Assembly: GCA_021810205.1 (NCBI GenBank)
Contig: JAJZJC010000015.1
Location: forward strand, 1-45,396
Length of the DNA stretch: 45,396 bases
DNA from: Actinomycetes bacterium
GTDB taxonomy: Bacteria > Actinomycetota > Acidimicrobiia > Acidimicrobiales > RAAP-2
Direction: 5' to 3'
The stretch's first letter is position 1. Every line of letters starts with the position of its first letter. A program made the position numbers and the translations under genes. Below the pieces are notes generated by a model that was given only the letters and a program-made list of their open reading frames with translations, was not told where the DNA came from and did no database searches. Below are positions 37,377-40,592 of this stretch, piece by piece.

Positions 37377-40592
<3,216 letters not shown>

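Follow-up and report, generated by a model that had tools for sequence, protein, structure and literature searches.

The window analysed here, a stretch of 45,396 nucleotides from an actinomycete of the order Acidimicrobiales, carries an isoleucyl-tRNA synthetase gene of type 2 (ileS, 37377..40592, minus strand) that is translated from a GTG start into 1071 aa and passes the NCBIfam isoleucyl-tRNA synthetase model TIGR00392 (839.3 bits against a cut-off of 621.4). On the same strand, Pfam places the class I synthetase core with its inserted editing domain (tRNA-synt_1, residues 19-642, 38667..40538), an anticodon-binding domain (Anticodon_1, residues 700-865, 37998..38495) and a C-terminal DUF5915 domain (residues 881-1027, 37512..37952). 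The translation contains an intact KMSKS loop at residues 612-616 (38745..38759), and sequence and alignment identify a conserved residue of the editing domain, Asp337 (GTGLVHLAPAFGEVD; 39582..39584), which we take to be the editing aspartate of this enzyme. A D334A mutant of the Streptomyces griseus IleRS is mentioned in PMC4861432. The neighbours are ordinary by their Pfam matches: an NAD-dependent DNA ligase (27160-29262), a HAD hydrolase (40696-41445) and a PIG-L deacetylase (43092-43994), all on the minus strand, and a zinc-type alcohol dehydrogenase (42100-43044) on the plus strand. No tRNA genes were found in the window.

At residues 55-58, the class I signature HxGH is replaced by GLHH (40419..40430, minus strand). 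The plus strand reads gtggtggaggcc at these positions, and the reverse complement, GGC CTC CAC CAC, encodes Gly55-Leu56-His57-His58 in the frame of the ileS ORF, which has no internal stop. When the protein is aligned by phmmer with solved structures, GLHH falls, with no gap near the motif, under the GVHH of 8c8w, the HVGH of 8c8u and the 1ile counterpart; we take these entries, from their letters and PMC10485003, to be a Priestia megaterium IleRS2 mutant, its wild type and the Thermus thermophilus IleRS2, respectively. An earlier note on this DNA had read the signature as GLHH with the KMSKS loop and editing domain kept, and both readings agree with the codons and the alignment. Because the alignment is ungapped, no normal HxGH stands in from another place in the protein, and a displaced signature is thereby ruled out. 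We regard it as exceedingly improbable that GLHH stems from faulty sequencing, from a pseudogene in decay or from a misreading with the true HxGH elsewhere: we found no evidence for it, and the open frame of 1071 codons, the structure alignment and the recurrence of the motif in relatives all speak against it. Chance is likewise no explanation, since 31 of the 32 readable members of the family have GxHH.

The sequence supports reading this enzyme as an IleRS2 with the GxHH swap. Its best PDB matches are 8c8w and 1ile (both E 5.3e-239), 8c8u (E 2.2e-237) is also among the best, and the top type 1 structure, 8c9f, scores far lower (E 2.5e-100, all by phmmer), where the division of PDB entries into types is our assumption, guided by PMC10485003. 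At the C-terminus, DUF5915, which would appear to be a marker of type 2 IleRS, is present; Pfam finds no zinc-finger model, and there is no Cys beyond residue 783. The protein has GPPTAN where IleRS1-like relatives have GPPYAN, and thus lacks the type 1 Tyr-59, which presumably corresponds to the T or Y of this stretch. In a tree of 53 chosen rows with the two motif regions left out, the window groups with the family rows (100% SH-aLRT), and these group with other GxHH enzymes (93% SH-aLRT, not starred); this was a quick build that carried the tool's warning that long branches meet between major groups. GLHH also has the Gly and His, at the first and third places of the signature column, that characterize the G/AXHH motif. 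One feature does not fit. PMC4861432 calls a HYPFE stretch a distinguishing motif of type 2 IleRS, whereas the window enzyme has GYPHK there. All four other aligned family rows have VGYPH, and HYPFE is retained in another member of the same order (L041). As best matches, C-terminus and tree all agree on type 2, we take HYPFE to be typical and not defining.

In the source genome (3.0 Mb, 177 contigs, 71.65% complete), this is the one gene above the TIGR00392 cut-off, so the earlier note's remark that no second ileS is in view extends from the window to the assembly. Three weaker matches to the ileS model were rejected as second copies: two fall within one LeuRS gene (787.8 bits, leuS_bact), and the third, 60 residues long, is closest among known families to the cysteine ligase MshC. 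At this completeness, a second ileS could be missing from the assembly, and accessory IleRS2 copies do exist elsewhere. The models for the resistance enzymes MupA and MupB also match the protein, far below their cut-offs (705 and 710 against 1900 bits). It is nonetheless very unlikely that the window enzyme serves as an extra, resistance-conferring IleRS in a cell that also has a normal one, given the single ileS in the source genome and given that no second full-length IleRS appears among the matches listed in 61 genomes. Elsewhere in the order, a HYGH-type second ileS (L214, on G322:C327), in a genome with 5% contamination, is probably itself contamination, since its bit score, identity and frame length are the same as those of the copy in G219.

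A GLHH IleRS is ordinary for this bacterial group, and some relatives are altered even further. Among the 37 genomes of the family, the window's included, the motif is readable in 32, as GLHH in 29 and as GFHH, GIHH and KLHH in one each; of the five others, two lack the N-terminus (G002, G007), and three have only weak, ValRS-range matches among the matches listed (G009, G027, G035). Across the order, 285 of 298 Acidimicrobiales genomes matched the window N-terminus at E 1e-15 and 13 did not. Sixty of the 298, again with the window, matched at 52% identity or more, and all 60 read GxHH. Another 217 had a weaker best match (E 8.1e-60 or worse), and the 43 of these that were read comprise 42 HxGH and one HTGN. 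The remaining eight encode a third IleRS type, discussed below. Of 119 genomes sampled from the phylum, 118 matched, and motifs were read in 70 (the 30 best matches and 40 chosen to span the range, which is not a random draw): 46 have GxHH of the window type, three GVHH of another lineage, ten HYGH and eight an IleRS1-like enzyme, with AVHT, GVHN and HFGN in one each. Lineages in this sample were told apart by the residues flanking the motif, and L298 was the one IleRS1-like sequence compared with structures. Odd motifs seen singly in these surveys are KLHH (L018, at the equivalent of residue 55), GVHN (L280), HFGN (L292) and HTGN (L230).

The motif has been characterized in other bacteria, and the paper on IleRS2 to which the earlier note alludes does describe GxHH and mupirocin hyper-resistance as stated there (Brkic et al. 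2023, PMC10485003). In that work, natural G/AXHH occurs in 86 of 379 IleRS, there found only in type 2, with hosts that include S. griseus, also an actinomycete, and Deinococcus radiodurans (ALHH). The natural ALHH enzyme of D. radiodurans has a Ki of 6.6 mM for mupirocin (its Table 1), and changing it to HVGH lowers the Ki 823-fold; the reverse swap raises the Ki about 175-fold in the T. thermophilus enzyme and 426-fold in P. megaterium IleRS2, with KM up and kcat down by as much as 10-fold. The structures reported there show the third His able to replace the first. For the S. griseus IleRS, whose motif PMC10485003 gives as of the G/AXHH kind, PMC4861432 reports a mupirocin Ki of about 10 mM; type 2 IleRS, according to that paper, occur mainly in firmicutes and actinobacteria. 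The window gene thus fits a published kind. The earlier note was right in kind to see here an IleRS2 that carries the hyper-resistance motif; its further suggestion, that the locus widens the range over which GxHH serves as a main enzyme, falls away with the published S. griseus case and the 46 of 70 phylum genomes read as GxHH.

By analogy with these enzymes, extreme insensitivity to mupirocin can be predicted from the motif. His57, at the third place, would do in the transition state what the first His does in HxGH enzymes, which the displaced tip of helix alpha1 in IleRS2 would allow. Being bulky, His57 would also clash with mupirocin, so that an inhibition constant in the millimolar range would be expected alongside near-normal activation. 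The expectation of near-normal activity rests on the natural cases, since enzymes into which the swap was put were worse by as much as 10-fold in KM and kcat. We are thus highly confident that the window encodes the sole, housekeeping type 2 IleRS of its actinomycete, GLHH-swapped, with an expected millimolar Ki for mupirocin and near-normal activation. This adds an environmental actinomycete lineage in which mupirocin hyper-resistance is expected to be natural and conferred by the main IleRS, which is useful as annotation but no surprise.

Why the motif is kept is a separate matter. The same enzyme may hold GxHH through ancestry and structure, and not because mupirocin selects for it, with hyper-resistance a by-product that has no present role, and we give this even chances. 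The spread of window-type GxHH through the phylum genomes read (not randomly drawn, as noted) agrees with it, as does the stability of GxHH in the window's family, which would be odd if the motif tracked exposure to one Pseudomonas antibiotic. Yet other families of the order use HxGH, which means that ancestry does not force GxHH, and the authors of PMC10485003 favour selection by antibiotics.

The more open question is posed by the third IleRS type, which occurs in relatives and lies outside the window. In these enzymes, AVHT or GVHT stands where HIGH is expected, and EMHGS or something close to it where KMSKS is expected; neither signature lysine is left, nor is the His that ends HIGH. The eight order genomes with this type divide equally between AVHT and GVHT, and the KMSKS place, readable in seven, is EMHGS in six and AMHGS in one. 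No second full-length ileS match was found in any of the eight, of which three are at least 90% complete. The third-type gene passes the TIGR00392 cut-off in four and falls just short of it in two (620.7 and 618.8 bits); in the remaining two, its matches to the ileS model are shorter or split. Among the carriers is Aciditerrimonas ferrireducens MV1 (L110), whose genome is listed as 85% complete, whose record title has no MAG label and whose order at NCBI is Acidimicrobiales. A third-type protein, P0002, from L062, L110 and others, scores 655.7 bits against TIGR00392 and has DUF5915 at its C-terminus. In an enzyme of this kind, ATP activation would have to rely on other residues or ions. Carriers of VHT with EMHGS or a near variant comprise L062 (G039), L063, L067 and L069-L073 and, from named genomes, L096-L111, L114, L116, L117, L120 and L123.

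A scan of named genomes, queried with an alignment of seven of the eight order sequences, places this type among its relatives. Within the best 80 of at least 563 relatives, the HIGH region is readable in 79 places, of which 21 have VHT and 58 have HH at places three and four. All but one of the VHT records are titled Actinomycetota or groups within it (the other, L114, is titled Melainabacteria), and at all 21 the KMSKS place starts with E, its second lysine being replaced by G, S or A. The HH places belong to Chloroflexota, Planctomycetota, Armatimonadota, Bacillota, Actinomycetota and others; 36 of them have MHKS, and L113 is the only one that has lost the second lysine without replacement by Arg. 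In the 53-row tree, a branch with 99% SH-aLRT separates the 15 VHT rows from the rest, and they lie nested among Actinomycetota GVHH rows. L113 (GVHH with EMHGS), L112 and L115 (EMHRS) and L118 (EMHKS) look like intermediates, and the change may have run stepwise from GVHH with MHKS through EMHKS, EMHRS and EMHGS to VHT. With such intermediate-like sisters at hand, one could follow, one enzyme after another, how a class I active site may have been rewritten in steps.

The Thr at the fourth HIGH place was dropped as a unique mark of the third type. It is shared by IleRS1-like relatives, in which five of the eight places read have HxGT (L287, L289, L298, L299 and L300, as HVGT, HLGT or HAGT), L298 being the closest to IleRS1 structures; PMC10485003 gives HXGH for all its IleRS1. 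What remains odd in the third type is therefore the loss of the KMSKS lysines. We found no report of a VHT or EMHGS IleRS in the open-licence literature. VHT, MHGS, MHKS and HXGT are absent from the main text of PMC10485003, and passages of PMC9437257 have nothing on signatures. The four motif classes stated in PMC10485003 account for 362 of its 379 sequences, and further motifs may thus have been known to its authors. The third lineage may also be the 'minor IleRS2 clade' of that paper, which it mentions for Planctomycetota and Chloroflexi.

Two cases would fit an exchange in which one type of ileS has repeatedly replaced another. In genus g23, one genome (G038) has the GLHH enzyme and two others (G244, G320) the AVHT enzyme; all three are at least 96% complete, and no second full-length IleRS is among the matches listed for them. 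In a Micromonosporaceae MAG (L236, G335:C108), two ileS genes lie side by side on the minus strand (5516-8911 and 2321-5512), one with GTHH and KMSKH and the next with GVHT and EMHGS (the latter read in L099). We consider it likely, though well short of assured, that a related lineage in the window's order and in other Actinomycetota has rewritten both class I signatures in what is the cell's only IleRS, that it did so by a stepwise series, and that the three designs interchange. If true, three designs of the IleRS active site would be replacing one another within the window's order, even inside a genus. Enzymes with HxGH, GxHH and VHT/EMHGS do the same essential job within this one order, and the three designs offer natural material for asking how far both textbook class I signatures can change.

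Set against known enzymes, the window IleRS most resembles the G/AXHH IleRS2 of D. radiodurans and S. griseus, with which it shares the first- and third-place swap in a type 2 enzyme; it differs from them in lineage and in having GYPHK for HYPFE. P. megaterium IleRS2 is among its best structure matches, but the wild type there is HVGH, and that species, according to PMC10485003, also encodes an IleRS1. MupA and MupB are, like the window enzyme, of type 2, and they resist mupirocin, whereas the window enzyme scores well short of their model cut-offs, and no further ileS was found in its genome. Third-type P0002 shares with it a score above the TIGR00392 cut-off and a C-terminal DUF5915, but is 38% identical to it and has neither the last His of HIGH nor the two KMSKS lysines.
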